Below, piece by piece: positions 1 through 64,000 of a stretch of DNA of 64,000 bases. The notes under the pieces are model-generated. The model saw only the letters and a list, made by a program, of their open reading frames with translations, did no database searches and had not been told where the DNA came from. A program made the translations under genes and the position numbers. This DNA comes from Psococerastis gibbosa (Eukaryota; Arthropoda; Insecta; Psocodea; Psocidae), in assembly GCA_963971405.1 (NCBI GenBank), contig OZ020488.1:21719089-21783088 (forward strand), read 5' to 3'. Position 1 is the stretch's first letter. Each line of letters begins with the position of its first letter.

Positions 1-401
1 AGCAATATGAATATGCATTCCTTTGTAAGCTTTGCTGCTGTAAAACCCCACTGTTTAGCACTTATAGGTGGTTTTCCCCCCCCCCCCCCGGGGGGAGACC
101 CCCGGACCCCCCCTTTGGGTTGCAATGCAATGTTATTTCTATGCAATCTAAACCGTCGTTATGATAGCATTACGATTTAATCCGCATATCCGTAAAATAT
201 TATGCCAATGTTCGCACCAAAGCTAATTCCGCCTATAAATTGATGTTTGGTGTGCCTATGCTATCATATATATACTCAGTAACACCATTACTTCAAAAGA
301 ATACACTAGATACAATTGAATTCTCATGAAAAATTTTTTACACTGGATAGGATCACAGTTGCAGCAGCCACCCCCGAAAAAAAATCTTGGCTACGGGCTT
401 G
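1..401 (-). mobile_element. hAT-like MITE, family D (TIR CAAGCCCGTAGCC), cut by window start
   Basis: The right end at 390-401 reads ctacgggcttg, the inverse of the left end of the copy at 48870-49535. The two copies match along most of their length in opposite orientation, including the stretch about an isolated region that reads like tttatcggcg-type unique sequence near 200-330. A C-run/G-run junction at 77-95 and a module containing gtaaaaccccactgtttagc at 40-60 are shared with other families. The left end lies outside the window, so no target duplication can be checked. No coding capacity is seen. The assignment to hAT is inferred from the better copy at 30215-30403. Confidence 0.75.
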
Positions 402-1863
402 TGGCCTTGTCTGCACGGCCTTGTATAATTTGCACAAATGTAGTACTATAACTGCTAAGGTTTGATCTTCAGGAAAAATTTGCCGCCCCCAAAAATTGGT
501 CGCCCTGGGCTACAGCTCATTTAGCTCATATGTAAATAGGGGCCTGATAGTATGATCTTATTCTTATGATGCATAATTTATGCCATCCCATATGTCATTT
601 AGCTTGTGTGTGGAAGAATAATGTAAACAGAGAGCAGCAGAATGCAGATATACAGTATGTAGGCTGTGTATCATGTATTTAGGTATACGTGAACCTATTA
701 ATGTCAGTAGAAGATAGCAGGGTTTACCGATTTATTGGTGACATTGGCTACGTTGTCGGCTCTGTCAATCTCCTGCTTGTTAAGTTTATGGCACCGTCGC
801 AGACGTCCGCCCGCCCGTCTCCGCTACCGGCCCCTACGTTACATGCTAACAGTCGTACACTAATTTGCTCCCATTCAGTTTGTCTCTTAAGAGGAAGCAG
901 GCCATTACATTGGTCACCCCTGGATCACCCCAAAATCATGGATGGATACAGGGGGGGGGGGCAGGGGGGTAGCTATAAACAATAAGTAGCCTGGCTGTGA
1001 CATATGCAAGCATTGACAGTTCCTCAATTCCACCTAATATACGGTACTATTTTTTGTTTTTATATAATTTAAGGAATGGATCCGATTAAGCTCATCAGTC
1101 GCCTCTGCAAGTTAGTTTGCATTGCCTTATGATAGCCTTGCAGTTCTCGTGGAGCGGCTGCCGTCAGGGAAAATTATAAAATATTTTATAATAGTCACCG
1201 GGCCAAATGCCAGCACTCTTTCATGAATGAAGGCAGCCAAAGGTGGTATCATAGCGAAACTCAGGCTTACACAACTAAGATGAATGCTCCGCTCATTTTG
1301 ACGTCCACTAATTGATCTCTGTACAAGTTTTCTCTCTCCTTGCACCTTTAAAAGAAATTTACATGTTTTCGGCACAATAGGATGGAATATTCATCAGTGT
1401 CAGTTGTCTTGATGGCTTGCTTCAGCTTCTGAACACTAGCATCCAAGCTCGCCTTGTGTGGGTTATAATTGTTCGCATACCATTCAAACTCGCTTTTATG
1501 CCCTCAAGGTTTTAAATGGTTCAGAGCAGTTGTGGGGGTAGGGGGGGACACATGGGCCACGTTACAAAAATTGAAAACTCCAACTGTTATTCAAACATCT
1601 CGTTAAATATAGCCTCATGCTCCGCATGGTCGTATCACGTCAAAAGAATAGGAAAGGACTTCGGGCTACCTCCATTGTTGTGATTTGGATTTGAGAAAGG
1701 CCGTTAGCCGTTAGCCGGTAGCAGTCCCTTTTACCAAGGGCCGTTCCCACTAACTTCCAAAGCACTTTCTGCGGGCAAACATTCAAAATGTAAACATATC
1801 AACTGCAATTGATAGGATTGAAATGAACTAAGCTAAAATTTTCAAGAAGGCCTATATACAATC
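402..1863. other. No gene seen; AT-rich intergenic DNA
   Basis: Short open frames here (for example 689-985 and 1127-1375) have no recognisable domain, biased composition or splice context. Around 935-970 a gatggatacaggggg-type piece resembles one end of MITE family A (see 4675-4844). Nothing else is supported. Confidence 0.5.
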
Positions 1864-2010
1864 CAGAGACGTAAAGTTTTAGAATGATGGCGGGGGCAAA
1901 ACTAAGTAGACCTTATGACGTCATCAGGCAGGATAAATTGAAATTATAAGAGCAAAATAGTAGGGTTTATTTTAATAGTAGTAAAGTATAGCTGTAGATT
2001 TTACAAAGCT
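1864..2010 (-). repeat. Truncated copy of MITE family G
   Basis: From cagagacgtaaagtttta onward this is the inverse of the right half of the element at 12055-12342, including gatggcgggggcaaaa and the palindrome-containing tatgacgtcatcaggcagg. The other half and its TIR are missing, so this is an old truncated insertion. Confidence 0.75.
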
Positions 2011-2387
2011 AATAATTGTATTAAAATCGATTGGAAGGCATGCATAAATTACTATCTATAAGATCAAGTGATCGCCGGTCTCTGAGGGTCACATTCGTAA
2101 CTGGAAGGATATTTTCCTGGAAGTAGGGTGGGTACGACCCTAAGTTAACGTATGGGACCCCCAAGCAGTGGCGCCAACGTGGCAATTTGTAATATTTGTG
2201 TTCTTTGTTAAACACCCTAACTTCAAGAGAAGGGGATGAGCACCCCCTAAATATTTTTTCTTGATCTTAATTTAATAAAATTCCCGACTGACTTTTTAGG
2301 TTCTCCAGAGTTTCCCCGCAGCAATAGCGTACGAAAATAAATTTTAATGATAAACGTGTGACAAATATTTTAACATAGGCCTAATGC

Positions 2388-2575
2388 CAGGGACGGAGCA
2401 GACCATTTTTGGGGAAGGGGGGTAGTTGTGGGTTAAAATCAAATAAACTTATGTAAGATAGTATCGTTTAAATTACAACTTAAAAAATTAACTTACAACA
2501 GTTACCAGACTTACTAAATTTTGGGGGGGGGGGGGAACAGCTACCCCCCTCCCCCTGCCCCTGTATCCGTCCTTG
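2388..2575 (+). mobile_element. hAT-like MITE, family A (TIR CAGGGACGG)
   Basis: The left end is cagggacggagcag and the right end ctgtatccgtccttg, which are imperfect inverted repeats. Between them lie the family A core (agttgtgggttaaaatcaaa, acttacaacagttaccagac) and a G-run followed by C-runs. Flanking 8-mers cctaatgc and cctataca agree only in the first four bases, so the target duplication is decayed. It is non-coding and needs a transposase in trans. Confidence 0.8.
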
Positions 2576-4022: not shown

Positions 4023-4067
4023 ATTTAGATGAAGATAGCCCTTATCTATATTCGAAACTACTCTAAG

Positions 4068-4447
4068 GCGCCCATTCCATTGACCGGCTAGGGCTATTTC
4101 CAAATCGGTGACGTGGTAGCAGACACTCAAGACTTAGGTAGCGTCTCCACCGACCTCGCATTGCAGATTGCAAGTGACATTGACAGAAATGTTTGTCTTT
4201 CTTTTTATAGAAATCTATTAAAATGTTTGTAATTAACATATCCCATGAAGCCATTTTTTAATTTTAGTTTGTTTGTTTGTGATTTTATTGTATGATCATT
4301 GATCAATTTTAACTATGGCATAGAGGAAAATAAACATTTCCGTCAATTCTGCAATGCGAGTTCGGTGGAAACGCCACCTAAGTCTTGAGTGTCTGCTACC
4401 ACGTCACCGTTTTGGAAATAGCCCTAGCCGGTCAATGGAATGGGCAC
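4068..4447. mobile_element. Fold-back element with about 130-bp inverted repeats
   Basis: The left arm (gcgcccattccattgaccgg onward, to about 4195) is repeated inverted in the right arm (about 4325-4447), covering the ctagggctatttcc, gtggtagcagacactcaaga and cgcattgcag stretches. The loop is about 130 bp. The 5-mer CTAAG flanks the element directly on both sides (4063-4067 and 4448-4452), suggesting a 5-bp target duplication. The 63-codon open frame on the - strand crosses an arm and is not a gene. The superfamily is not assigned. Confidence 0.85.
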
Positions 4448-4674
4448 CTAAGGAGTTTTTAAACCAAATTTGGCAGTTATGTAGATACCCCAAAATGGCA
4501 GCCCTTAAAAAATAACCAAGTGTTATTAGACATTCCGGTATAAAGTATAGTCTATGTTAGCTACTTTAGATTAGATAGGGGTGTTTCAGGTGAGTGCGGA
4601 GTGGTGGAAATTTTTAACCCTTACATTGTAATCAGTGCCAAAAATGCAGGCCTTTGTCGGACTAGGCGCAGAAT

Positions 4675-4844
4675 CAGGGACGGATCCAGCCCATTTGGGG
4701 GGGGGGGATAGTTGTGGGTCAAAATAGGAAAAACATGTGTAGTATTAAATCAAAGCGTAATCAATTAACTTACAATAGATTTAACAAATTTTGGGGGGGG
4801 GGGGGGCTACCCCTCCTGCCCCCCCTCTCCCGTATCCGTCCATG
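4675..4844 (+). mobile_element. hAT-like MITE, family A, with perfect 8-bp TSD
   Basis: TIRs are cagggacggatccag and its inverse ending in gtatccgtccatg. The octamer CGCAGAAT is present on both sides (4667-4674 and 4845-4852), a perfect 8-bp duplication, which supports membership of the hAT superfamily. The interior carries ttgtgggtcaaaatagg and a G-run/C-run pair. At 170 bp it is one of the best reference copies in the window. Confidence 0.9.
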
Positions 4845-4903
4845 CGCAGAATACGGATTTGTTGGGAACTAGCAAACGAGTTACAGGAAAATGTGTCCAG
4901 CGA

Positions 4904-10698: not shown

Positions 10699-10700
<2 letters not shown>
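9620..10700. other. No gene seen
   Basis: AT-rich sequence with several short overlapping open frames (9732-9962, 10224-10421, 10321-10530) that share no domain or composition typical of protein. No repeat family from elsewhere in the window was recognised. Confidence 0.45.

Positions 10701-10787
<87 letters not shown>
10701..10787. repeat. (CAT)29 trinucleotide microsatellite
   Basis: Twenty-nine uninterrupted CAT units, followed by AAC-type units at about 10800-10820. Open frames crossing it encode only poly-Ile, poly-Met or poly-Asp tracts and are artefacts of the repeat. Confidence 0.97.
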
Positions 10788-14160: not shown

Positions 14161-17100
14161 ATGTAATAGGATGATATTAGGCCTATGTCGCTGGGTTATG
14201 AGAGGCATGGAAGTCCTCCAGTAACAGAGTTTCTTTAATAAAAGTGGTCCATCCCTACTTGATATAGTTATGTAACAACTGTGACCCAATAAGAAAGTCA
14301 CTATTAACCGAGTTTCTGTCTTACCTGTGTCTTCATAGAGACACTCACCCCTATATAAGGAAGTTGGATGCAAACGTTAAATACTATTTGTATGTCTGGT
14401 CCCAATTTAAACAGATTGGCCGTGTAGACACTGAATGAAACGATAATGTTATCAAACTCACGTCCAGTCGGACTGTAACCCAATAAAAATGGAATGAGTG
14501 CCAAATGAAGGAGACGCCCAAGACAGGGACCTCTCTTGTTCCAACCCCGAAAACAACGTCTTGAATCGGTCACATCTCATAGACTAATAGGCTAGGTTAT
14601 CGGAGTTGTCAGCTCCGACTGGAAAAAAATGGACCTAACCGCAAATGAAAAGGTTTGCTGAGGGTGTGGGCGGCAGGGAGGTGTTGATTATATTTGAAAT
14701 AATGTGAGAGCGCGCGCATCGGTGATTGGTCTAATGGGCCAGTCGTGCCAACCATACGCGCATGCGTGACGACGCGCACGAGTGTTTTTGAGCGATATGC
14801 CCAGCGCCGTTTCTAGTTGCTGTGACATTCCGGGCGAATGACAGAAAATAATACACAAAAGAGGCACACAGGAAGCTAAATACGGGATTCTTTCTACGTG
14901 TTGTTGGAATTATACGTTCTATTCTTTCCAAGACTTCGTGTCTTCGAAGGAAGGTGGTTTCTTTAAAAGCCAAGGGGGCCCGTGGGCCATAAGTTATGAT
15001 ATGGACTGATATGATTTATAATAATTAGGCTCCAGAAATTATGTAACAAATTATTGAGGAATTTAAAGTAAACTCGAAATTGAATGAATTATTATTTATA
15101 TTAATGGTTTCTGTAGCCTGTCCGTAACTATTCTCTGTATCGTACTTAATTAAAAATGAGTAATTTAGCCTGTATTAATTTTTAATAAAAATAAAAATTT
15201 ATATTATATTTATTAATAAAAATAAAAATAAATACGTATATTACAAATTTGCTTAGTTCTCTAGGTCACACCTTTCATTCTCACTGTTCATCTGTTAATG
15301 GTTACCGTATTGGTTTTGATATTTCTATAAATAATAATAAAATGTTGGTTATTACGTATTTACCTGCATTCAAATATGTTATTAATTACCGTATCGTATA
15401 TATATATATATACATACCACATTTGCTTAGCGCATTAGACTGCATAGTTAATACCGCGTAGTCACCGTAAGAAACTTTTTGCGGGGGAAGAATAATTTCC
15501 TATGAAGGGTGTATTTTTTATTTAAGGACTTTGTATGGACCCAGGCCTACTTATTATAGGGCCCATAGATCCTTTACTATCAAGAGTGTAGGCCCTAACC
15601 ATATTATTATAATATAACCAATGTTTTTCCTATTTTTCTATAGTAGGTACTTGCTTAGGTACCTATCTTGTTTCTTGTATCTGTCTTTAACTCTTATGCC
15701 TCTCGTATATGACACATTTGGGGGTTGATATCAATGCTGCACGGCCAGACTGCTAGAATACTATATTATTACACCTATACATTTGAATGAATCGAAATGG
15801 GGCCATAATTGTGTAAATATGTCCAAATTAAAGCAGAACTAAATAAACATTAAAACGGGTGCACTCGTCAAGCCTGTTCCTTTCCAGCCTATTGAAGTCC
15901 CCTTATGTTTCAAATTACATGTTGCTTTCTTCAAGCCTTGTTAATAAGTATAAGAACATACTGTAGATTAAATGGCGTCGAGCAGGTATTATAGGCCTAT
16001 TGAAATTCTTTTCTCAATTGCACTCACTTATCAACAGAAGTAGCCTACGGCCGTTTTATTAGGGAAGTTTGATGGTCACAGGAAGTCCATTTTTATTTTT
16101 TACTTAACTTCTTATGGTAGGCACAGACGGAAACAGGGGGAGGGGCAAATATTTAGTAATTTAATTAGTATTGTAAGTTAATTTATTAGGTACGGTACGT
16201 TCTTATTTAATCGATAAGCTTACAACATAATATGTTTCTTCTATTTATTCACAGTTTGAGGATTTTCGTCCCATATTTAATTAAAAAAATATTCTTGATC
16301 TTTAACGGCTTCAACTACAAGATAATACAGCGATGTTCTTCATACTTCACACGTTAGTTAGTTACTAAAGTAGCCAAGGGGATTGATGCATCCTCAGGAG
16401 GTCCAACTTCCCCCTCACCCAAATTGAATAACATTATACAAGAAAAAATCTCTATTTCAGCTGTTTAGAAGTAAAGCCAGGTACCATTGCCTTGGATCCC
16501 ATAGAAAGCTATGCTAAACTGACTACTTTTCAACTTTACTGCTGCCCCCTGCTACAAAGTGCTTTATGAAGGACTGCTAGTTCCCTGCCCTTTAACCGAT
16601 ACCCAAAGCAAAGGGGAGGTTTTTCACAATTGCCACGTTCATCAGTAATGGATGCTCATCATCCATTTTCCAATCTATACGTTTCAACGACGACCGAATG
16701 TCCTGCAGAACCAGCTTGCTTCAAAAATAACCCAGACAAGCGTATGTGTATAAACGGTTGGTATAGGAGGTACTTACATCATGTGAAGCAGATGCATAGG
16801 GGTCTTGCGAAGAAGACATGAGCAACGGGCTCACCTGATCCCAACACTCTTCATGCATTTCCATAGTGTCACTATCACAAATAACTATTTTCACAAAACT
16901 CCAAGTACCTACTACAGTACAATTCCAGGCTGGTAGCTTTTCAACCGTACATTACGAAGACGGCGGCTCTCGAGACTTGGCCACCTTCATTGCGCTCCTG
17001 AAACAATGAGAGAGAGAAAGATAACAGTAACTTTATTGCTTAATTAATATAAAGTAATTAATAACGTCATTGGCACCGACTTGGGAAAATTCTGAAGGGT

Positions 17101-34769: not shown

Positions 34770-34945
34770 GTCATGCTGTCGCCTGATATATATATTGGGG
34801 CAATAGTAACCTTGTCTCAGCTTCTCCATTACAGCTTGTAGCCGGTGTACATTGTTGACATCGAGGACGTTTGCCAATCATTAAAAGTTCTTACGGAAAC
34901 AATATAAATGCTTTGGGCATGTAAAGCAAGCGGTCCCGGGAGTCG
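34770..34945 (-). repeat. Diverged SINE fragments
   Basis: ttctccattacagcttgtag, ttgacatcgaggacg and aagttcttacggaaa resemble 37390-37475, and gtaaagcaagcggtcccggg resembles the inverse of the body of the same SINE. It appears rearranged and old. Confidence 0.5.
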
Positions 34946-37194: not shown

Positions 37195-37480
37195 AAGGAC
37201 TTTTTATTGTTTCTATTACTAAGCCAACCGTGCGGAGTTTGGGCTATAAGCCCTCTCTTACGCTCACCTAGGAAGGCCCGGGACCGCCTGCTTTACATGC
37301 CCTCCGAAGCATGGCCAGAAAATGTAGCCAGTGTGGGACTCGAACCAACAACCACAACGCTTACGCCTGTGACATTGCGTCAATGGTAAGCTTGTCCATT
37401 ATCTCTTGTAACCAGTGTAGGTTGACGTCGAGGACGCATATCAGTTTGCCAGTGGCCAAAAATTCTTGCGGAAAATCCGA
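37195..37480 (-). mobile_element. tRNA-derived SINE
   Basis: On the - strand ttggttcgagtcccacac (B box, + strand positions about 37330-37350) sits in a tRNA-like T arm, followed by a body with ctggccatgcttcggagggc and ggcggtcccgggccttccta and an AT-rich tail. Truncated copies are at 22006-22120 and 34770-34945. It would need RNA polymerase III for transcription and a LINE partner for movement, which are family facts and not shown here. Confidence 0.65.
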
Positions 37481-37527
37481 AAAACCATGGGGTCGTTGGC
37501 AGGGCAAGGTTCAAAAAACTATATACA

Positions 37528-37549
37528 ATATATATATATATATATATAT
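37528..37549. repeat. (TA)n microsatellite
   Basis: About eleven TA units, read directly. Confidence 0.9.
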
Positions 37550-38312
37550 TTAGGCCATAAGAGTCCTTCAAATGTAATAATAATCGTCACATGATACTAT
37601 CTATGCGCTGTGGAATCATGGTACATACAGATTTGAAACATTATGGAAAGAGAAAGTAATTTCACCAAAAATTATTATTACCCAGGAACTCTGTTAACAC
37701 AGTTAACTCTGTACCTTGAAGCCCAGGTTGAAATGGAAAACATTAAAATGCAATTTCCACTTCCATTTGATATGAAGTTAGAACAATTTTTTTTTCTAAA
37801 ATTCTATTTAAACCACGTGATAAATTTTCGGAGAGGTTAAACTGTCAGTACATACCCTGAAGGTAAACGCACCGCAGTAAAATTGTGTTAATAAAAAATT
37901 TCTAGGTATCGGCTAAACAACCTTTTGTCCGTTATTTTCATTCGAAGTTAATTTAATTTTTGCTTCCTGAAGTTTAATTGATTGAACTTATCATTACTTT
38001 CGCAAGTGTGTCAAGAAAGTCCTTAACACCCCTCCACAGCACTAAGAGCAGTGCTGCTGTTGTTTTGAAAAGCACGTGCCGTACACACCACCAAATCCAT
38101 TACGGAGCGCACGCCTTTTAATTTTTCACCCTAGCGTCTTCGCCCCAGTGCTGGCTTTCAAAGTTTTTGATCTTAATTTAACCCCATTCAGTGGCCTTGC
38201 TGCTAACCAAAATGAATCATGCATGCTGCATTACAAGAAAAAAAGTAACTTATATTTGTACAAACATTGTAATATTAATTTCTGGAAATATCCTATACTA
38301 TACCATACCTGT

Positions 38313-38459
38313 GGGCCTGATATGCCGTTTAGTACTAACGTATTCCTGGGGTTAAAAATGTAAACTAAACAATTTTGAATAGCACTGTCCAGTCTAAAAT
38401 TATCTTGTTTACATTTTTAATCCCAGGTTAAGATTAAAAATAATCGCCATAGTAGGCCC
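38313..38459. mobile_element. Palindromic MITE, family E
   Basis: ttcctggggttaaaaatgta pairs with tttacatttttaatcccagg. The core gaatagcactgtccagtc and the outer arms gggcctgatatgcc and aatcgccatagtaggccc agree with the other three copies. Confidence 0.78.
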
Positions 38460-38680
38460 GATGGTATGGTGTAGTACATAAATTATCGTTTCAGCAGCTC
38501 TACTGAATCATTAGTTAGGACAGGAAACCATTTATGAATAATAGGGGTCTTCACAGTGTTCTTGTTATCGAGTTATCGAGTTAGATTTGCTATTCAAGTT
38601 AACACACAATCGTGAATGGACCTCGGGAGTGAGTTATCATGCTATATCGACAGAGTAAACAACGTGGTAGTAGTCCATTG

Positions 38681-38716
38681 AACTATATATATATATACAC
38701 ATATATATATGTATAT
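38681..38716. repeat. TA/CA microsatellite
   Basis: An alternating purine-pyrimidine tract tatatatatatacacatatatat, read directly, in intron 2. Confidence 0.85.
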
Positions 38717-40424
38717 CAATGTAGTAGTCAGACGTTCGTGGCACGGGTTTAATAAAGAATGTGGCAGAACTTTATTCTAGTGCCACATTTGTTTATATTT
38801 TTTGTTCATTTTGGTTATTATAATTTTAAGTATTTACGGTAATTGCTTGTTATAATAGATTATACAAATAAATTTAAATACTGCAAAATTTTAAACGCGT
38901 GTTTCAAATCAATCGACAAAACCAAATATGGCTCAAACCTGAGCTATAGCAAGGTAAATAACACGTTAACCAACTTGGAAGTGGGTTTAGGATAGCACGC
39001 TGGTTAGCTGGTTGTCGGGTTATCGGTGTGTTAACTTAGCTTGATATAACACACTTAACTAGGTATGACTCGATAACACGAACACTGTGAAGACCCTTAA
39101 TATGAAAATACTCAGCATTTCATTTCAATGATCGGATTTTCTATTGTACTACAGTAAAAGTATGCAAAACGAGTTTTAACTATTTTGTGTAATTCATCAC
39201 AATATCCTGGAGTTGGAATGACCTAGGCCCTATTTAGCTTTTGTGTGTAAATGACAGAGCCAGAAACTTATTTGCTTACAAATTTTCTATTTATTGTATG
39301 CTCAATTTATTGGTTCGCTTCCAAATATTTTTTAAAACAATTGTATTTCCAGTTTTTATCTTTTCTAGCTAATTTTCTTATCGAAAAACCAACGATGCTA
39401 ACGTTATTTACATCCTTTTAACAAACGCTATTGTTTGTCGGTCCCAAACTCCATTGCGCATGCTAGAACAGTTCACATGTTTGAACCATTATTTTATGTC
39501 TTATTTGCAGTAGGGTACATACCCATCCAACTTCACAATTTTTTTTTCTTGAAACGTGCCCATAATTTTTCTGATTATTATATTGAATTAAGTAGAGGAA
39601 ATGAATGGAATATAGGATGGAATTATCGAAGACCACACATTAATTTATATTTTATATGAAAATAATTAAAGTGTAAATCCGAGCATGGTTGTTCGGTTGG
39701 GGTCACTAGCTTATAAAAAGGCAATGCGTTGGTGTAAAGCTAATGTTCTGAAGAAATAATTAATTAAAATTAATTAAAGTACAACATACAGACATGGGAT
39801 ACAGTGGAAGTGCCTCGAAACTTTTCGGCGTCGCAATTTGAACATGAAATGAAAACTGTTGTAAACTTGATCCCCCCTCGTCTTCCTCCCATAAGCTTTT
39901 ACCCTCTTGAGGCTGTTTAACAATAATGGGAACACGTGTCGCGAACGGGCCACGTTCGCTCGTTGGCTGAATGAAATGAAAACAATGACGCTGTGGTCGC
40001 TGAGTAGTGCCGCGGGGCGTGGACATACTCCAAAAACCGATACATCCCATTAATTTTTGCCATGGGAAATTTTGATAAAATGTTTCGCTGTTGTAACCAT
40101 ATTATAGTCGGAGGGGAGCATTAAGATGGCTATATTTGACATTTCCTTTTAACTCTTTGCCACCCCATATGTTAGCCCCGGGCTCTTATAATAGTGTTTC
40201 GCCTTGTTTAAGAATCAGCATATTATACAATTAATTGGATTGCTGCTGCTAGTATTCGCAATATCTTACGTGGGATTCTTTCATATGATCTACGTATAAT
40301 ATTCTTGGAATATTATTTGTAATTTGAATAATATTAACAGATCGTACACGCTTATAAAAATATACTTTTACTTTTACGGCGCCTTATGGAGGGTCGGTGG
40401 CACACAGCCTTGTTCTGTGCGTCC

Positions 40425-40746
40425 TCGGTTGGGAACCCCAAACTTCTTAAAGATATATAAGTAATAAAAACAATTGGTCTATTCAAGTTGTAGAAGACTA
40501 TTTCATACATCATATTACAGGGTATTTTTTTAATTGTTTGGAGGGTATTCCCAGTAACTTTCATGGAAGAACTGCTGTACCTAAAATTAAAAGTACTTTA
40601 AAATATAACGTACGAAATTAATAGTCTCCAACAACTTGGAATTGAATAAATCTGTAATAAATTGTTTGGTAAATATAATAAAAAATAAAATTTCCATGAA
40701 AGCATCAAATTTTGGGCCGCCAAATTTCTAAGTTCCACATCCTCTT
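40425..40746 (-). repeat. Diverged fold-back element, family H
   Basis: Shares gttgtagaagactatttcat and the end ccacatcctctta with the better copy at 50920-51291. The open frame 40352-40564 lies largely within it and is not a gene. Confidence 0.45.
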
Positions 40747-40959
40747 AATATCCAATTCTTGCGGCCCCCGAAAGCGAAGCTTATGGCCGGTTGCTTGCTC
40801 GTGCTTGTACTGCTCTCTACACCATGCGATTAGAGGCCTGCCACAACTTGCTCAACACAGGTGTTATACCTATAGGCGGCTGAAGAAGTTATATTATACA
40901 TTATTATTATTTTTTTATTATATACATTTATTTATTATTATACATTCATTAGTAGTAGT

Positions 40960-41110
40960 ATGGTTGGACAGTCCCAGGCCACGGTGTGGGCCCATACACA
41001 GTGGACCTCCTGATGAAAAAAACAATTGTCAGTTGCTGATAGGTGCAAACGTTCTTTACAAACCGAGTTGCCGTTCTTTACTGAAAATGTCACAATGTAA
41101 CAGAACGTTG
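40960..41110 (+). repeat. Copy of the 36380-36605 repeat
   Basis: gtcccaggccacggtgtggg and cagtggacctcctgatga are the inverse of the end of the repeat at 36380-36605. The 143-codon frame 40712-41143 is made of this and the neighbouring 40790-40880 repeat. Confidence 0.5.
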
Positions 41111-42458
41111 GTCGGAGCTAGGTCCAAAATAAAGATTTATTAACCTAGCCCTACACTATCATAAATAGTATTTATTAGTAGTAAAGATAAGCAAACCTTT
41201 AAAGGCTCTTGTATATAGCTTACTTCAATGGTGGCGCTAGCCCCCCTCCCTTAGTGAATTTGCAGGTCCCCCCTCGGAAACTTGGTGAATATTCTATGGG
41301 ACTTGTCTCGGCAACTGTCACCCACCGTCCAAAACTTGCTTCTTCCTCACTTTACTTATCCTTATTTTCTTACTACCACTTTGTCCCCTCTTTCGGCTTG
41401 GAGGCCGAATTTTAAAGGCAAATTATTCCTTTTTTGCATCTGTTTTGTAGTCTTTGTTTACAGCAACAGCCTAGCTATTCTGCTGTTAAACTTTTTGATT
41501 GTTATCGTTGTACGAATTTTTATTTTTTATTTTTGCCTGAAGTCAAATTTCTCATGAAATACCCATCCTGGGGCGATAAATGAGGTGTCATAAAATAGAT
41601 AAAATAGATTCCTCTACGCTTTGAATTTTATGTACATCATAGCAGTCACTAACGCCGATCGGCGCAGTTATGGATCTTGATTTGTTGTTGTTAAAAATAA
41701 CGGGCACTGAGGATGTCAGGTTGAAGGAGCTCCAAAACTGTAGCTAATACTACCGTACGTATCAAAATGAAGAGGAACATTTCTTCTGCGTTATACCATC
41801 TCATTTATGAAGTTACGATTGAAATGTCATAAGAAATTTGACTTTGTGCAAAAAACGGAAAATGCGTGGGTCCATGTGGTCTTAATTGATACAAGAAGTT
41901 CTGAATAACAATAATTCTGTAGAAATGAATGTCTACCAAGTGAACAAGCTCCATTACTCTGCGGAGGAGGCAATTAGGAAAATTCATGAAGTGCCGATCT
42001 ATACTCAATTAATTGGTATTGTAGAAGTACTCATTTACCTGAGGTTAAGTGGGGAAGGTAGGAGAAAATAGAAAATGAAAAAATATTAATGAAGACATAA
42101 ACATAAAATATAATGCAGAGGACTTTTGGTTTATTTATTTACTTTTTCAATTTTGTTTTCCATTTCTCCCACTTCAACTCGGGTCAGTAAATTACTTCTT
42201 TCATAATGTTTTTGGAAAACATCATGGTGGACGAGTAAATTTAGAAAAATTATTTATGTGTCTCTTTCCACAGCTCCAATGTACTGTAAGAAGAGAAATC
42301 GTCCTACAGCTCTTATACCTACATAACTTATAAACATTATTGTTGAAAAGCTAGTTAGGGCCCCAGCCTAAGGGAATACCTGGACCTGGTAGGCTGATTG
42401 TCCTAAGATTATTCAGGTGCTACCTTAGACTGTGAGAAGAACCATTGATTTGTTACAG

Positions 42459-42590
42459 GACGATGATGACAGTTCTTCTGTGACATCTTTGGACCCAAAA
42501 ACAAGGGAGTGGCTGGTCAGCGCCGCCAGAGTGGACTACCATACGATTGCTAAGCTAGCCAGTGAATCCCCTCGCCTTGTCCGTACTAAG
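42459..42590 (+). CDS. sowah: SOWAH homologue, exon 3 (residues 231-274): pre-ankyrin segment
   Basis: Starts after the acceptor ttgttacag with an acidic-serine run (DDDDSSS) and continues with SLDPKTREWLVSAARVDYHT and IAKLASESPRLVRTK. A LDP..EW...A.....L..L....P.LV..K pattern is what lies immediately before the ankyrin repeats in SOWAH proteins; the next exon should begin with a D-[FY]-x-x-G-[YF]-T-A-L-H-W-A type ankyrin start. It joins exon 2 in phase 0 and ends in phase 0 at actaag|gtaagt. The 44 codons are fully open. It is 7.9 kb from exon 2; assignment to the same gene rests on matching family order, strand and phase. Confidence 0.87.
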
Positions 42591-44330: not shown

Positions 44331-44632
44331 TCACTCTAGATACTTCATTACTCTATATTATTATACAATATATTAGTTCTACTACATTTCAGCCATACAA
44401 AGGAAGTGCTTTGCTGTAGTTGACAGTATTGATAAAGTTAATTGAGTTTGTAGTTTTTTAGGGTTTACAGTCAATGGCGCCTGGGGCGTGAGCATCCATT
44501 TATACCTTTCCCTTAGAAAGCCTAAAAACATCGAACTAAAAAATACGTACTGCACGAAATTGTCCTGACACGGACTTTATCAGGAATGCCTATTTTTACG
44601 CTTAGTTATGCTGACTTGTGTCACTTTATAAA

Positions 44633-45501
44633 GAACCGGTCCGAGTTCACTCGAACATGCTTTCCAATTTATCAAAATTATTAGATAGAGAAAATTAGTA
44701 ATTTTATGGCAAATATTTTTCCTATGGTTAAATTTCCGATATCTCGGGGGGGGGGGGGGGCGGTTGTCCACCTGACGTCACTGGAAGTGAGGTGAATTCT
44801 CGATAGGTCAAACAAACACATTAATTACCACACAGCAATAATGGCAGGGCATGCAATGCATTTGAGCGCGAATTTTCTATCATTTTTTTCAAAAAATAAT
44901 TTTTTGGGCAAAACCAAAATTTTTTTTGGGAAAGCAACCTATCCGGTTTCGTTACTCAATTTAACACCTAAAACATGCTTGAAGGTAGAAATCATCGATA
45001 GAAAGGTTTCGCATTTTTTAGTCATTTTTTCATTAAAATTTAGTTATTTTTATTTTTTTACCCCCAGAAGCAAACTATCAAGGGGCAAGCGACCCCCCGC
45101 ATTTTGTCAACATTAATAACGACTACAATCTACGAGAATTTAAAAGAAATCGTTGGAGCCGTTTTTGAGAAATAATTTTTTTAGACGTTTTTTTTGGAGT
45201 TTTTTGAAAATAAAACCCCCCCAAATTGAGTTAGCCCAAAAAAAAAAAAATGGTCCCGAGGTATGATTTTTGTGAACCTACATGCCAAATTTCACTCAAA
45301 TCCACTGAGTAGTTTGCCCGGAAATCGACGAACAGACAGACCGACCGACAGACCGACAGACCGACCGACAGACAGACATTTTGTGAAAACCACTTTTTTG
45401 GGTTCCTGGGACCTCAAAACGTGTAAATCCGTTGAAATCTCGGAATCGAAAATTTCGACCATCACAAAGCTTTCCTTATACTACGTATAAATTGGAAAGC
45501 A
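44633..45501 (+). repeat. 0.87-kb interspersed repeat, copy 1
   Basis: Runs from gaaccggtccgagttcactc to ctacgtataaattggaaagc and is present as a near full-length inverted copy at 57269-58123. Landmarks are a G-run followed by tccacctgacgtcactgg, runs of T with caaaaaataattttttgggc, and the CCGACAGA tandem. Terminal inverted repeats are not obvious; the ends share only a short ttggaaagc/gctttccaa similarity. Open frames inside (44841-45116, 45263-45490) are low-complexity. Element class is unknown. Confidence 0.75.
45332..45378. repeat. CCGA/CAGA short tandem repeat
   Basis: An interrupted tetranucleotide array of CCGA and CAGA units inside the 0.87-kb repeat. In copy 2 (57398-57420) the matching place is a plain GTCT array, so the array has changed between copies. 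Confidence 0.85.
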
Positions 45502-46599
45502 ACTAGTCTTTTAAAATAATTTCTGAACAGTGCTTACGTAGGCCTGGTCCCACCATCACATCGCTTGGAAAGTCTCGGTAAGGACATATATTACTTACAT
45601 GAATTGGACGATAACGGTACCGTTCAGTGTTGCTTACTGGGACGGGCCTTTAGTCTGTTTTTTCCCCCCATTTTTCACGAAATAAGTTGTTTTAGTTATT
45701 TATGCTGAGAAATGTGAAAATATTGTGGTAGATTTATTTGAATGCCTCTGGCTTGATTCATTATGTATTATGCAGTCATTCATTGTACGAAATCGTGACT
45801 TCGAGCTGAATGACATTTTAAATGATGGTATTGTTGCCGTGTTCTCTGTCCGAGAAGGTGCAAAAAAGGGTGATTATCATCTTGGGGGGCGATGATTGGC
45901 CATTTGAATTAATTATGCCACTCCGTTCTTTTATTATTTTTACCCGGTGGGCTCTAAAAACATGGAGAAGTCATCGCCCATCCACTCAGTTGCATAAATT
46001 TTCTCTACTATTTGGAGTGCTTTTTTTATTTTGCTTGTACATTATCGGTCTCAATTGTATAATTTGGAGGTTCCAATTTTTACGGCTATGCTAAACTGTA
46101 TTAATCTCTTATTTCTATTTATACCTATTTTAAACACGCTTATGAAAAGGTTACAACAGGATGTTGAATTCTTAAGAAGTTCTTCTTTTATCCAACCAAT
46201 CTAAAGGAAATGTTGCCGTTTCTATCCACATTCATTTTGAGCAATAAGGGAGAGATTTGCTTGAAGTAGGAACTGGTGGCTCTGTACGGAAGCAGTAGAA
46301 TAAATTCAGTATAGAATTCATAGAAATATGATTCAAGAGTAAAATGTAGAAGGAAACGATTAAGGGATTCATAAACCAATTTTTTTCATTGTCAAAATAC
46401 GAAATGCCTTTTTACTCCTCCTTCATAAGCATTTTACCCAAATTTTTGAAATAAAGGTTTTACTTATTTTTTTGAATTGTGTAGGTTTTAAAATTGAAAA
46501 GAAGCAAAATACTTTTCTCTATTTTTCCTATTCTTTGTGCATTTTGCTTTCTGAAAATTACGCTGGGCTGATAAAGAAGTAGAATCGGGACTAGATTTC

Positions 46600-47472: not shown

Positions 47473-47474
47473 GG

Positions 47475-47610
47475 CAAGGACGGATACGGGGGCAGGGGGT
47501 TGCTACCCCCCCCCCATAATTTAGTAAATATGTTGTAAGTAAATGCATTACGTTACAAATTAATCTATACTAAACACGTTTATTCTATTTTGACCCACCA
47601 CTTCTTGTGT
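47475..47610 (-). mobile_element. MITE family A, right end truncated
   Basis: Begins caaggacggatacggggg, with G-run, C-run and the inverse family A core up to ctattttgacccacc. The other TIR is missing. Confidence 0.8.
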
Positions 47611-47639
47611 AATTGACGCTGAGTAGTTAAAATGGCATA

Positions 47640-47850
47640 CTTCTGACTTTTCGACCCGTTGCATAGCAACTCAACAACCGCTCGACACTAGCAAACTCTC
47701 TTTCATTCTTCATGAGTACAGTTTTGGCAATCTCAATTTGAATGTACACGGTTATTGAGACAGCTGTTCCGGGCAGCAGCAGAGTGCACATTGTGCCTTA
47801 TGAGCTAATTGGCCGGTATTAACATTGAAAAAAGCATGGTTAGGTCCTCG
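47640..47850. promoter_or_regulatory. Candidate intronic regulatory segment 2, with RFX X-box
   Basis: Contains a perfect palindromic X-box GTTGCATAGCAAC at 47658-47670, matching the binding pattern of RFX transcription factors (two half sites with a short spacer). It is followed by atgagctaattggccgg (homeodomain core) in repeat-free sequence. No coding frame. Functional role is inferred only. Confidence 0.4.
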
Positions 47851-48596
47851 CCTTCAAAAACTGTGGCCAAACGTTATTACTGCCGGCTACAGGCAGCATT
47901 GAAATACTGAGGAGCATTTCTTCTTTTTTATGTCATCAGATATATATGGCCCTATAATCGATATGTGACTTAATTCAAGAAACGTCTTGTGGGGTGTCCG
48001 AATGTCTCATAATGTGTTTAAGTGTGTTATTGAATTCGGTAAACGATGGTGCTCATTAAAAAAGTGATAACAGACCGTTCTATGTATAAAATAAACGACT
48101 AACAATGCAGCTGATACTATATTACCCCAACGTAGCTGCAAACGCAATAATTTATCATACCACCAAATCCTTTCTGTTGACAGAACCTGTTACCGCTGCA
48201 ATTAAAATGTTTTTCTGTAATTTCAATAAATAAAAATCCACTTGGATTTCGATATTTTGATTGGATTCGTCTATTATTTGTGCAGCCAGATTATTTCTGT
48301 TTTTGTATCGCGTAGTTCTATCATCTCTATATAACATCCGGGGTGGTTTCCAATTATTTTTATTTCATATTTATTGAAATAGAAATATTGTTAATGAAAC
48401 CCAGGCTGGTAGCTCTCGTAATTATCTGTTTGTTTATGAGGTTACCAATATTTATGAGGTAGGCGGATCTAGTTAGTTTAACCTGGCCAGTGACCAGTAG
48501 CGTCGATATGTTTGTGTTTCTATCAGAAGGTTTAGTTTACTAATTTACATGTTTGATTACTTTGGTTATTTGGGCAGCTGTTATTTCATGTCGAGA

Positions 48597-48670
48597 CATG
48601 TAGCGTAGTGGTACGGGCTTTGACTTTCACCCGGAAGGTTGTTGGTTCGAGTCCCACACTTGCTATACAT
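48597..48670 (+). repeat. tRNA-derived SINE head
   Basis: tgtagcgtagtggtacggg (A box region) and ttggttcgagtcccacac (B box) with gctttgactttcacccgg between, very similar to 7122-7200. The downstream body (cgctccgctagattggc) is short. No acceptor stem pairing supports a functional tRNA. Confidence 0.65.
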
Positions 48671-51291: not shown

Positions 51292-51955
51292 GTGTTCCTT
51301 CCAAAAGATAAGATCCTGGTCCTAATAAAATGATTTGAAGGAGGGACAGGAACTCAAGTCATTGGAAGGAAAACAAACATTGGAGTTGGGGAGGTGTGTC
51401 CTCCGCTCTAAATCAAACCTTACATGGCTACCGTCCGTACAAATTGATTGTTATTTTGTTATTTATTGCGGAACCTGACCTTGCCTTTACCATCAACTAT
51501 GTGGAACTATTATTCAGCCGTGGCTGCTCTTTGCGGGAGATATACTAACGATTTCAGGGGCAGAGGCGTTCCTTTAACTCATTTTGTATTTTTTGAATTC
51601 GCATTAATTTCGTTTACTAATGAGACAAACAGAAGGTGAACTGAGTCTAAAATATTTATAGTGTTATGGTGTAGCATATTGCCCAAATTAAAATATTGCA
51701 ATGCTTGTTGTAATCGACATCTACTGGCCTACCGCAAGGCGACGCCCGTGTGCAGTTTTTACATCTGGCTATTAAATACATGTATGCAGTCAATTGTCAA
51801 AAATACAAACGGGATTTTTTTTTATTGAAGCGCGGGACTTTCGATTATCACGAAAGAGCTCCACGCCTTAATCTAAAAAAAAGGATTGAAGCCATATTAA
51901 AAATGAAATGGAATTTATACGCGTTAGCTATTTGGGTTTTAATCCATGTCGTTAT

Positions 51956-52116
51956 CAGGGACGGATCCAGCCCATTTTCGGGGGGGGGGGGGGGTAGTTG
52001 TGGGTCAAAATAGGAAAACATATGTAAGATCAATTAAATCAGAGCGTAATAAATTAATTTACAATAGATTTACCAAATTTGGGGGGGGGGGGGTAGCTGC
52101 CCTTGGTCCGTCCTTG
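51956..52116 (+). mobile_element. hAT-like MITE, family A, perfect 8-bp TSD
   Basis: cagggacggatccagcccat at the left, ggtccgtccttg at the right, and GTCGTTAT on both sides (51948-51955 and 52117-52124). Two long G-runs (about 51970 and 52081). With 4675-4844 it defines the target duplication of the family. Confidence 0.92.
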
Positions 52117-56304: not shown

Positions 56305-57113
56305 ACCTACTACAAATATACAATATTACAAACGTTTTCACGCCTCTTATTACGACTCGTCTATAACTCGTTTGAATTGAACTATTTGGGCTCTATAATG
56401 CAATTATTTTAGCTACAATTAATTTTTATTGGCATACATACTGTTATAGTAATAGTAAAAACTGTTAATTTCACTTTCCATTCTGTGTTGGCTGCACAAT
56501 TTAGTGAAAATAGTCAAAATACTCATAGATGTGCTGAAAGTGGTCCTGACCTAAAACGTTTTGTCTGTTATCAGTGCTGTCCGCTTTTCTAACCAGGCCA
56601 AACATCAAAACAACTTGCTCAACACGTTTCTATCCACCCGTATCAGGCGCCTGCTCCTAAAACCTTAAATCCCACCATTGTCACATTCGGGGTAAATTAC
56701 CCGAGCAAATTCTCTTGTCGGCACCAAATTCGTTTTAACCTGAGCGAGTACCCTGGCGCCATACAGAGACTGAAAGCTGTAAAAAGAACTCGGTTTATGG
56801 TTCAATAACAACTGATCCTCTTTTGTTGGAGCCTTTTCGGTACTTTGCTGTTTAGCATTATACCGTGACATAATTGAGTGGTCTGCCGTCTGAATACTGA
56901 CACAAAAGGAATTTTTACAGTTATTTGAGGCATTGTGTAATTCTTCTCTGATTGGGTTCTGTTGAGTGTCTGTCATTTAGTTTTGGCTAAATTGCGGTAA
57001 ATTTGTGCGAAAGAAGTTTCTTTCCCAAAGCCCCGCCGATCTACTAGACACACCCATTCGGTTGTGATCTTTTTCACAGGTACATTATTACTGTATTTTC
57101 TTTTAAGACTTTC

Positions 57114-57235
57114 CAGCCCATTTTGGGGTAGTTGTGGATTAAAATATAACAAACATATGTAGTATTGATTAAATTAGAGCGTAATAAATAAACTTACAAC
57201 AGATTTACTAAATTTTGGTGGGGGGGGGGGGCAAC
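57114..57235 (+). repeat. MITE family A copy without TIRs
   Basis: ccagcccattttggggtagt, aaacatatgtagtattgat and acttacaacagatttacta are family A core, but both outer TIRs are missing. It abuts the 0.87-kb repeat copy 2. Confidence 0.75.
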
Positions 57236-57268
57236 TATGGGGACCCCTATTGTTACTGTGTAAACATT

Positions 57269-58123
57269 TTTGCTTTCCAATTTATACGTAGTATAAGGAA
57301 AGCTTTGTGATGGTCAAAATTTTCAATTCCGAGATTTCAACGGATTTACACGTTTTCAGGTCCCATCAGGAACCCAAAAAGTGGTTTTTACGAAATGTCT
57401 GTCTGTCTGTCTGTCTGTGCATCGATTTCCGGGCAAACTCCTCGGTCGATTTGGATGAAATTAGCATGTAGGTTTACAAAAATCATACCTCAGGAATATT
57501 TTTTTTTTTTTTTTGGGGCCAACTCAATTTGGGGGGTTTTATTCTCAAAAAACTCCAAAAAAAATCTAAAAAAATTATTTCTCAAAAACGGCTCCGACGA
57601 TTTCTTTTAAATCCTCATATATTGTAGTCGTCATTAATGTTGAAAAAATGCGGGGGGTCGCTTGCCCCTTGATAGTTTGCTTCTGGGAGTAAAAAAATAA
57701 AAATAACGAAATTTTAATGATAAATGACTAAAAAATAATTTTTCTGCGAAACCTTTCTATCGATGATTTCTACCGTCAGGCTTCTTTTAGGTGTTAAATT
57801 GAGTAACGAAACCGGATAGGTTGCTTTCCCAAAAAAATATTTGGTTTTGCACAAAAAATTATTTTTTGAAAAAATGATAGAAAATTCGCGCTTAAATGCA
57901 TTGCGTACCCTGCCATTATAGCTTTGTGGTAATTAATGTGTTTGTCTGACCTATCTAGAATTTATCTCACTTTCAGTGACGTCAGTTGGACAACCCCCCC
58001 CCCCCTCCCCGAGATATCGGAAATTTAACCACTGGAAAATTATTTACCATGAAATTACTCATTTTCTCTATCTACTAATGTTGATAAATTAGAAAGCATG
58101 TTCGAGTAAACTCGGACCGGTTC
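57269..58123 (-). repeat. 0.87-kb interspersed repeat, copy 2 (inverted)
   Basis: Runs from gctttccaatttatacgtag to gagtaaactcggaccggttc, the inverse of 44633-45501. Differences include a GTCT array for the CCGA/CAGA array and a C-run in place of the G-run. The two copies are 11.8 kb apart in inverted orientation within intron 3. Confidence 0.78.
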
Positions 58124-58189
58124 TTTTTTTTAATTAGAACAGTTAACACTCGCTAGGGGTCTGTAGTAAATATAAAGCCCTTTGTTTTT

Positions 58190-58710: not shown

Positions 58711-58939
58711 TCTTCATTCTGTGAAACCAGGCTTTCCTCGCCAATTTCCCTCTTGGTGTTTGTTCTAAAGTCTGTTACTTTTGCATTTTGATTCAGCTGC
58801 GATCGTGATGACCTCTGTTGTTGACTTATTATATCGCTTGTGCATACTGTACATGGTATTGTTATATGTCAATTCATCACTAGAATTTAATTTTTTTTCA
58901 CTCATTAAGCCTGTACGGAAATGCAATGGGATCATTATT

Positions 58940-59100
58940 ATTATTTTTTGCGAGGGCGCCGACGTGAAGTGTCAGACTGACCAGTTTGATTAATTGTCGA
59001 GTCTCATTAGCAGCAACCCCCAAATGTGCGCCCATCTGCTCTGTTTGTGGCTAAGTCCAGCCCAAACGCTTACAGTTGATGCACGATTAGCTATACTACT
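58940..59100. promoter_or_regulatory. Candidate intronic regulatory segment 5
   Basis: Contains tttgattaattgtcgagtct and cattagcag (homeodomain-type cores) and gaccagtttg in a repeat-free segment with higher GC (cgagggcgccgacgtgaag). No coding evidence. Confidence 0.28.
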
Positions 59101-59387
59101 GCTATTAAGCCATTGGCATAGCTTGGTGGAAACATAGTTCTTCTTATTGGAATCTCTGACTTGTCAGTCTGAACAATCTGAACACTGTGCGTCGTTCTGC
59201 TACTATCTTCGATGGTCTGAATGACCGTGTGTCACATGATAGGGGCTACCCCTGCCAGAATGTGCAAGCACTAGTATGTGTGATTGGCATTAAATTTTTC
59301 TGATTATATAATATAACCCCGGTAAGGACTACTGGAGAGATCATGTCCCTGCCGAGATTGTGTCCCTAATGCTGAGTTCCCGAGGCG

Positions 59388-59636
59388 AATGGATACAGAA
59401 GCCGAGTTGCTGCTGACGGTGAAGAAACGGAAACTAACATACTTTGGCCATGTGATGAACGAAAAGTATCGTCTTCTGCATGTAATAATCTAAGGGAAGA
59501 TCGATGGGCTCCCGGTAGAAGAAGAACATCCTGGTTGAAAACCCTGAGGCAGTGGTTTGGCAAGAGCACGACTTCCCTTTTCAGAGCAACCGTCTCCAAG
59601 GTCCAAATTGCTATGATTTTCGCCAATCTTCGATAG
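59388..59636 (+). pseudogene. Non-LTR retrotransposon reverse transcriptase C-terminal remnant
   Basis: Translation gives KKRKLTYFGHVMNEKYRLLH in one frame, then after an in-frame stop and a frameshift PGRRRTSWLKTLRQWF and SLFRATVSKVQIAMIFANLR followed by TAG at 59634. The order R-K-L-x-Y-F-G-H-[VI]-M, G-R-R-R-x-S-W-L-K-x-L-R, LFR..V.K..IA...AN.R is the usual C-terminus of one large group of animal non-LTR reverse transcriptases. Polymerase and endonuclease domains are absent. It is a 5'-truncated, mutated copy; the reading frame is broken near 59490-59505. Confidence 0.85.
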
Positions 59637-62116
59637 CAGAGGCACTTGAAAAGAACGACTACTGCACGGCACCGCTAGATATTGATTGATGGCGTATTCC
59701 TTACCGATACTTCTCAAGCAATGGTGGGTCCGGCCGGGCCGCAGGATCTCTTTCTTCTACCATAAATAATAAAAGAGGGAGAGGACATTAATTAATTTAA
59801 ATGATCAATTCTTTTGGATATTTTATTTATTTCAAAATGTGGAATCAGACCGGCCCTTAAAAGTAGTCTGAGTTACTGGTGTAGTTGAAATAGAAGACAG
59901 CTCTATTTGAAACTTGGAGGTGTCATTAGATTAACTTGGACGGGGAACCAAATGAAGTGGTGTTAAAAATAACAAGGAAGTGAAAAATCATTGGAACAGG
60001 GGTGTTAAACTAATTCAGGGGTGTCAGACCCAAGCTAATGTTGTCAAACGGATCCTCTCATTACTGCAACCCTGATCCCGGCCCCTCTCCCCTCCCCCCT
60101 CATTTTTTGTGACTTCTCATATTCTGACTGCTGCTGTCGATGAGTAATTGCCCTCTTTCTCTGTTACAAGAAATTAGGGAAGGGTTTTTGGCTGCTGTTA
60201 ATTTTTTGAGTCGTGTAGCAGCGTGTAACAGTACCGCCTCCTTCCTCCTGCACTACACCATGTATATTTTTTCTACTGTGTCTTTTATTTGATCTGTGTT
60301 TAAATCTTGTTCACTGCATTGTGACCCCAATTTTGAGCCAAATTTTTGTCTGACATCATCTTATTCGTTGTATACTGTATGCATGAAAAAAATTATTTTG
60401 GCCCTATGCGGGAAAATCTTCTGTTATGGGCCCCGAGTCAGGCATGTTTCTTAAGACCACTAGCTAATTTATTGCTATTATGGTAGTCTAGGCTGCTCCG
60501 TGGTAAGCAGTTGTGCGATGGAGAATTTAAACCTTTCCCATACTTTGCGATATGGAATTTTGACATTTCCCCTAATAGTATGGGTACTTAGGAGTTGGGA
60601 TTCAGTATAGTACAATAATTAAGGCCATGTAAGTAGTTAGCAATTATAACTTATCGTACTGTATGTTGTGATTGTGAGTTGTGCTTTAAGGCGGACTATC
60701 TGTCAAAAATTGAACTTGAACTTTGTACCAATAAGTCACGTAATTATACCGAAATTTTGTTTGGTATTCTATGTTGCCATAATCGCAGTTCCGGATTATA
60801 TTTCCATCTACATTTTGTAGGAGTGATAGCTTGTATGATTGTACATGCGTTTTTGCTGGGCTCCATTGTTAGCTTACGTTTTGGAGTATACAGTTGCTCT
60901 TAAGAGCCTACCTGTCTCTGGCTTTTGAATTAGGTGAACAGATATCTGCATTAAAAAGAAACGTGTGTGTGTTTGTAAATAAATAAATATATGAATAGTG
61001 ACTTTGTGTTCAAATTACTTATTAATTAATAAATAATTTTCTTATAGACAGCAAAGATTATCCCGGCACGCTGAGTCACTTTTATGAATCCCCCTAGCGG
61101 CCAGCCACACATGCTGGTGTATGCGTGAACGGTGTTCTGCCACCCGTAAATAAATTTGTAAATTAAATGTAAATATGTGAATATGTAAATAAAATTGTAA
61201 ATAAATACAATTGGCCAGTTCCTAAGAGAAGGCGCGTCCGAAAATGGGAGCAGTTTGAATTTAGTTATTTAGTGATGCTTACTGAGTACTCCATCATTTG
61301 ACCTCAGGACATAATTTCTGTTAGCAGTTTTTTGGTCCCTGACGTATGGGTATAACTTTCATCAAGCCCACTGTGGGAAATTTACGAAAGTAGGAATCGT
61401 GAAAAGAATTGTTGCTGTCAATTGTTCCGTCATAGTTGTCACATATTATGTGTCTATATTCATCATGAACGGTACTCTGCATTGCTGGTGATAGCTACAT
61501 GTTAAAATTTTCGAATGAGAGCACATGATATGCCATGAAGATGGAATTTTTATTAAGAATGACATGAGTAATTTGACGGTTTGTTGACGGCCGCCATGTT
61601 TTTATGATACATCATCTGCCATTCCAGCAAATGGTTTCCCGGTTTTTGTTTTTGTGACTGTATTGATACGCCTGTCTGTCATGTGGAATGGGAAAATGAC
61701 CGCGTGACTCTGTGTATCTGTCAAAACAGCTATATGGTTTCGATGCGAATCAAGGAAATAAAAAGACAGTAGGCCTAATCGTTGATTGTTAGTGTTTCAG
61801 TTTAGAATTTCGTTGTTCTGTGTTTTTGACGTATGGGGGATGATAACTTCTTGAAGAATTTGAATTAAAATTTGTGTATGCCTCGCTGATTAAGCTGACA
61901 TTTTGCGTAATGTTTTGTATGTGTGCACAGCACGTCCTTGTTGCCTTTTTGCATTGTATTTGAGGATTCGATTTTTGTTTTTAAGTTCTAACCTACCTTA
62001 CTATTCTGCCCTGACACTCGACCCACCAACGAGAATAACAGCTTCGTGGAGACAACTCGCTTAATATACTCGCGCCCTTAAATTAATTTAAAAAAAAAAA
62101 AATACTGGTAGGCGCA

Positions 62117-62434
62117 TCACCAAATGGCTAACCTGCGTTGGCTTGTAAAAGATTTTTTGCTTCTGCAAGTAAGAACATTATACGTCCCAGACTTTGTTTT
62201 ACATGAATATGGTACGTACAAGAAAACTGTGCGAATGGATTCCTCGCCAAATGAGTGGCATGGGCTTAAAATGTATAAACTTCGTTGACAAATGAGGGGT
62301 GAACTATGATTTTTGTTAGCGAGTGGAGTGTATGTTTCTGCTGAAGAAAGGTTGTTTAATAATAATGTAGTGCATGAGAAAAGAGGAGAAGAGCTTTCAA
62401 CACGAGGGCGTCGATTAGGGCTCGGTGGTGACAT
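62117..62434 (-). other. Open reading frame of unknown status
   Basis: The longest non-repeat frame in this stretch (105 codons) on the - strand. I recognise no domain, and composition is not clearly coding. On the + strand atggctaacctgcgttggct opens a short frame followed by caagtaaga (donor-like), equally unsupported. Either could be chance. Confidence 0.12.
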
Positions 62435-62917
62435 ATGGGTTCTTCTTGATATTTAGCGTGTCATGTTTTCCTAATAAATTTGTTTTTATTTTGTAGAACA
62501 ACGTTTGAATGTGAAAACTTAGCGGTAGCAATTGATTTACGAGCCCCTAGGGTCCCCGACCTGGCTCTAGAATCATTCCTCAACATATTTTAGCCCCATT
62601 CATTTAGTATAGTTTCTTAGAATGCATTGCCCCAGTTTTTGGCAAGTTTTGGACTGAATGGTGAGTAAATTTTTTCATATTTTGGACAAATGTTGAAGAT
62701 ATGTCCCCTTTTTTATAATAATAGCCTAATCCTATAACATTTACATTATATAGTATCCACTAACGAATGGAATGTTGGTGCTGTGCAGTTACTTTGTAAG
62801 ACAGGATAACAAGTAACCTAGCAATTAACTATTAACATGATTTCAAATCCATTTGATTGTTATGTTCCATCCATGCACTATTATCATAAAAATATTTCTA
62901 TACCAAATTACAAACAC

Positions 62918-63175
62918 CGACGACTTAAAAGTCGAAGACTATTTCATGCGTTATATCATAAGGAAATTTTAATTTTTGTTGTAATTGTTGCATGGAAAGT
63001 ACTGGGGACTAGTGTCACACTCTGTAAAATTCAAGAAAAAGTCACAGCAAAAATTTAAAATACCCTACGATATTAGTCTATGCATGAAAATAGTCCTATA
63101 GACAAAATCTTTAACAATATGCGTAGGAATTTAAAAAAAAAAAAAATAGAAACTGACTGATTTTGGGGAGATCCA
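62918..63175. repeat. Possible third copy of fold-back family H
   Basis: gtcgaagactatttcatgcg is answered inverted by atgcatgaaaatagtcctat at 63080-63100, and gattttggggagatcc lies near the right limit. Similarity to 50920-51291 is weak. Confidence 0.35.
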
Positions 63176-63891
63176 GCCAGGGCTGGCCAATATCCTACAG
63201 TATTAAATTAAACAAGTCGTTATTTGTATTAGATGCAAACAACACGTACAATAAGTAATAGAAAGATTGTCTGTCATAACAAGAGAAAATGCTATTACAG
63301 AAGGAAGCTAACACTCGAATTGATTTATGAGTTTTGCTTTCAGCAATTAGAACACTGATGAGCGTAATGAGAACATCATTGTCATCAGTCATGCCCGGGG
63401 ATATATGACAAATTACATGAGTTGCGTTTTTTGGCGCGACATCCTCGCATGTTTTCCCTGTTTTTATTATGTTGTCTCAAGACATTACTGTGCTTTCATA
63501 CGCTGATATGTTTTTAAGGGGGCTTTTTCTCGGAATCGGACCTATTTGTGGCTTTTTAGCTTCTAAATGTCAGCGATAATTGTTTAGCGAGAATAATGTC
63601 TCTGGTTAAAATAACATTTTTGAATTCACATTGCTGTATTGTCAGCATGTCGCTGATTTTATTATTCTGTTTGGCGGTTTTTATTTTCTGTTATGTACTT
63701 AATTATCCATCAAAAAAATTAAAATCTCGCCAGACAGGGATTAGAGAAACGGCAGGTAGGTAGCGTCGTTATAACAATTAACAGCATCTTATCTGGTGAT
63801 GAATATCACTTGTGTACCATGAGTCTCTTGATTGTCCTTACAGTATATTGTCATATGATTCCAGGGTGAGTCTAAGATACCATACTATACG

Positions 63892-64000
63892 CAGGGACGG
63901 ATCCAGCCTGTTGGGGGGGGGGGGGTTAGTTGTGAAACATACATATGTATTGTAGTATCGATTAAATTAACTTACAACAGATTTACTAAAAATTTTTTTT
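63892..64000 (+). mobile_element. MITE family A, cut by window end
   Basis: cagggacggatccagcct, G-run, tagttgtgaaacatacatat and acttacaacagatttacta. The right TIR lies beyond the window. Confidence 0.85.

Follow-up and report, generated by a model that had tools for sequence, protein, structure and literature searches.

An intron-bearing Sowah gene with a very long third intron and its possible membership of an Irx-Sowah regulatory block

Does the Sowah gene found in the 64-kb window analyzed here (the whole stretch of DNA, bases 1 to 64,000) act as a bystander whose introns carry regulatory DNA for a neighboring Iroquois homeobox (Irx) gene? We take CG10632 to be sowah. According to one survey, Irx is associated with CG10632 in most bilaterians, vertebrates excepted, and CG10632 is positioned either 5' of the Irx cluster or inside it (Kerner 2009, PMC2674049). 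In Drosophila, a second study localizes the wing regulatory DNA of ara and caup inside sowah, by deficiency and insertion mapping and by the tilt lesion, and the deficiencies suggest to us that sowah and ara face each other with their 5' ends (PMC12311624). Two further reports describe the block as conserved apart from tetrapods (PMC5803294, PMC5585340), in which the parental Sowah was lost from the Iroquois locus and a retrogene was kept elsewhere (PMC5803294). The general linkage on which the preliminary description of this DNA was built is already published (PMC2674049, PMC12311624, PMC5803294, PMC5585340). The concept of an Irx-Sowah block is established, and the present locus would be one more member.

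The window contains the promoter end and the first three coding exons of Sowah, probably from a bilaterian invertebrate, corresponding to the N-terminal part of the protein up to the ankyrin repeats (Table 1). These exons are collinear and phase-consistent on the + strand, together encode 274 codons (274 aa), and open with an ATG lying in the context AACATGGCGG. Our reference for Sowah identity was an approximate human SOWAHC fragment, not a database record. When the whole window was searched with this fragment by tblastn, the best three matches were exons 2, 1, and 3 (E values of 0.002, 0.094, and 0.67, respectively), on the same strand and in collinear order. The best E value obtained with 30 shuffled SOWAHC queries was 0.071, which exon 2 alone surpasses individually; exons 1 and 3 are individually non-significant, and the case for Sowah consequently rests on the order of the exons and the phase in which they join. 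In pair comparisons, the 274-aa product matches the SOWAHC fragment over the N-terminal SOWAH domain (33 of 83 residues identical, E value of 1e-12), and exon 3 aligns with the conserved pre-ankyrin segment at an E value of 0.003, with 13 of 36 residues identical. The presence of Sowah, as first described, is thus borne out by three phase-consistent exons that are also the top three tblastn matches. Pfam assigned no family to the 274-aa product, which is uninformative since the SOWAHC fragment itself retrieved no SOWAH-type family from Pfam, its matches being to models of ankyrin repeats and, weakly, to two other models. A PDB search with the N-terminal part of Sowah returned a single match, a calcium-binding protein with an E value of 1.1, which we dismissed as chance. 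The end of exon 3 coincides with the start of the ankyrin repeats in the SOWAHC fragment, so these repeats should follow after base 64000. A six-frame Pfam scan revealed no ankyrin exon in intron 3, nor did tblastn searches with generic ankyrin sequences, whose best E value of 0.43 is unconvincing.

Table 1. Positions of the Sowah gene parts and flanking features in the 64-kb window.
Feature	Position	Strand	Description
Upstream DNA without recognised protein domain or Irx homeobox	1-32577		Pfam, tblastn; repeat cover 13.1%
Putative Sowah promoter-proximal stretch	32578-32646	+	CCAAT-type boxes at 32578, 32592; TGACGTCA site at 32626
Sowah coding exon 1	32647-32773	+	127 nt; ATG at 32647; in-frame join; matches SOWAHC fragment
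Intron 1 of Sowah	32774-34001	+	1,228 bases; GT/AG borders; repeat cover 0%
Sowah coding exon 2	34002-34564	+	563 nt; open frame; in-frame join; matches SOWAHC fragment
Intron 2 of Sowah	34565-42458	+	7,894 bases; GT/AG borders; repeat cover 9.9%
Sowah coding exon 3	42459-42590	+	132 nt; in-frame join; stops where ankyrin repeats should start
Intron 3 of Sowah	42591-64000	+	at least 21,410 bases, past window end; donor GTAAGT; repeat cover 20.7%
Longest stretch free of within-window repeats	58714-63890		5,176 bases, in intron 3

With two complete introns and a third that is still open at the end of the window, this is an intron-bearing copy and therefore of the parental kind, not a relocated retrogene. 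Vertebrate SOWAHA-D, by comparison, have a single-exon structure. As judged from the SOWAHC fragment, these vertebrate proteins share with the gene described here the same N-terminal domain and pre-ankyrin segment; in contrast, the tetrapod retrogene lies away from the Irx locus (PMC5803294), and the present gene has at least three introns.

Upstream of the start codon, the CCAAT-type boxes and the TGACGTCA site are suggestive of Sowah promoter signals, and suggestive at most because both recur across the window (163 CCAAT-type boxes and 8 TGACGTCA sites). Elsewhere, the kilobase starting at 14501 has the highest CpG observed/expected ratio of the window (1.30), and a GCGCATGCG (NRF1-like) site at 14758, the sole one in the window, lies in the interval 14640-14840 together with one of the 163 CCAAT-type boxes, at 14725. 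This interval is possibly an unannotated promoter, located approximately 18 kb upstream of Sowah.

The window was scanned with Pfam over its whole length in six frames, with stops written as X, in 30 segments (11, 10, and 9, with E value limits of 0.05, 1, and 1, respectively), a scan that had no positive control. No family was matched in the window at an E value of 0.05 or below, and the homeobox family was absent from all 30 segments. The sole match in the 30 segments, a DM domain (0.086) that arose in the scan of 10 segments at E values up to 1, is at chance level for 30 segments and was rejected. An approximate Irx homeodomain, used as a tblastn query against the window including the 32.6 kb upstream and the 21.4 kb of intron 3, gave a best E value of 1.5, while a planted control homeodomain, with 15 of its 61 positions randomly redrawn and split over two exons, was detected at 4e-12. 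Two statements made earlier, that no Irx gene lies in the window and that a gene desert precedes Sowah, hence agree with these searches, the desert being 32.6 kb in which Pfam recognized no other gene. Rfam and tRNA scans of the window yielded 0 matches.

On balance, we consider it probable that Sowah is here the bystander of an Irx-Sowah genomic regulatory block, with Irx situated to the left of base 1 and contacted by intronic and intergenic enhancers. Going by the fly arrangement, Irx is predicted to lie on the - strand in divergent orientation to Sowah, and some of the enhancers in the Sowah introns and in the intervening DNA would contact the Irx promoter. Enhancers reaching Irx from within Sowah would cause any splitting of the gene pair to be selected against. 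The Irx linkage, the side and strand of Irx, and any enhancer function are in this case inferred from other animals. Linkage itself is likely, given the published linkage in bilaterians and the intron-bearing, parental nature of this Sowah, which would be the kind of copy expected still to lie beside Irx, judging from PMC5803294. The locus resembles known Irx-Sowah blocks in its intron-bearing Sowah, its very long intron ahead of the ankyrin repeats, and its domain-free upstream DNA, and differs from them in that the window has no Irx gene and that the locus is known from sequence alone. Similarly, large introns are common to this gene and to Drosophila sowah, which neighbors the Iroquois Complex (ara, caup; tilt), whereas regulatory DNA inside sowah was mapped genetically in the fly (PMC12311624) and would here be a prediction. 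The regulatory-block reading is a sensible prior drawn from the literature and does not derive from the sequence of the 64-kb window. We count four observations against it: the window holds no Irx, only one of 11 motif classes is clearly above background, intron 3 tolerates repeats, and the repeat-free islands are near chance length.

The last two observations come from an analysis of repeats occurring at least twice within the window, a method to which single-copy transposons are invisible. Such repeats occupy 9,519 bases in 52 blocks (43 once blocks within 150 bases of each other are merged), and their cover is highest in intron 3, followed by the upstream DNA, intron 2, and intron 1 (Table 1). 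Counted as blocks per kb, intron 3 has 0.56 vs. 0.74 upstream. Six repeat-free gaps exceed 3 kb, two of which hold Sowah exons, while one is wholly inside intron 3. When blocks were placed at random, the longest gap was unexceptional (P values of 0.29 for unmerged blocks, 0.48 for merged blocks, and 0.15 for intron 3 alone), and the number of gaps longer than 3 kb was borderline high (0.012 unmerged, 0.075 merged). We therefore rejected the islands as evidence of constraint, since random placement simulations give the same greatest length and since single-copy transposons are undetectable from within-window repeats. The layout that the preliminary description had taken as a sign of long-range regulatory DNA divides into parts that fare differently. 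The very long third intron, open at the window end, stands, and repeat-free islands do exist, but their lengths are near chance; intron 3 shows no depletion of repeats, and the layout as a whole does not discriminate between readings. Taken alone, a long intron and a desert are nothing unusual in an animal genome rich in repeats.

Alternatively, Sowah may be unlinked to Irx in this lineage, the intron and the desert having been made by transposon-driven growth and the noncoding DNA having no special role. Repeats dispersed throughout, with their densest cover in intron 3, islands that fit random placement, and the failure to find Irx in the 64-kb window all agree with this explanation, and unlinked Sowah genes do exist, since vertebrates, Nematostella, and Trichoplax are reported to lack the linkage (Kerner 2009, PMC2674049). 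We nevertheless hold it to be rather unlikely, because linkage is the published rule in most non-vertebrate bilaterians and because the introns indicate that this copy is not a relocated retrogene.

Motifs of 11 transcription-factor classes were counted over the whole window and compared with 40 order-1 simulations, which is a weak test. The sole clear excess among the 11 classes is that of the Fox-type motif (52 vs. 36.4 expected, SD 5.2), to which a dispersed repeat with such a site probably contributes, and the TCF-type motif is low (21 vs. 30.0, SD 5.5). E-box density is highest in the island 47603-48601, with 3 per kb, in a comparison of 10 islands made by eye. These counts provide no clear support for special constraint in the window. 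Neither motif clustering nor repeat depletion singles out intron 3, as would be expected if Irx were linked and its regulatory DNA lay elsewhere, either in later introns or in the intergenic DNA to the left of base 1, so that any elements in intron 3 would serve Sowah itself. This version appears improbable to us, as the regulatory DNA mapped in Drosophila sits inside sowah (PMC12311624). More ambitious than the regulatory-block reading that we prefer is the idea that the Irx-Sowah block is expanded, its Irx enhancers being spread across intron 3 and the upstream desert and persisting despite heavy repeat turnover, a proposal that we can advance only tentatively.

What is at stake differs with the outcome. 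If Irx is linked, this would be another species where a developmental gene has remained next to a bystander unrelated to it, and the locus would help to find ancient intronic elements. Should the expanded block prove true, comparison with relatives would show which ancient regulatory pieces resist repeat turnover. An unlinked Irx would mean that the block was lost independently, and this would be the more informative of the two outcomes.

The repeats themselves have several features of their own. One intron 3 element is present in two inverted copies (44630-45502 and 57270-58126; 857-873 bases) that are 88% identical; it matched nothing in Pfam when this part of the window was read in six frames and is thus probably non-autonomous. 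A short dispersed repeat occurs in eight places (2385-2575, 4673-4845, 28366-28555, 31008-31196, 47474-47602, 51954-52101, 57112-57237, and 63891-63969), and four of its copies contain an exact TAGTTGTGGGTCAAAATARGAAAA. Searches for exact patterns of two repeat families gave 0 matches among viral contigs and 0 among genome contigs, and none of the 19 pattern stretches that the Sowah protein gave in the viral contigs was confirmed. Two further stretches, 4063-4452 (74%) and 38296-38476 (72%), match their own reverse complement over the full length, as foldback elements do. Runs of at least eight G or C number 49 in the window, vs. a mean of 1.55 (maximum 3) in 20 order-1 simulations, examples being those at 4697, 12529, 30929, 44746, 51980, and 63913. 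Since several of these runs lie in dispersed repeats, poly-G/C is seemingly part of some repeat families. A perfect TCA microsatellite of 29.3 copies is found at 10700-10787. Finally, an intron 3 island harbors the only RFX-like inverted repeat of the window, GTTGCATAGCAAC at 47658-47670, which may be there by chance (one vs. 0.5 expected).
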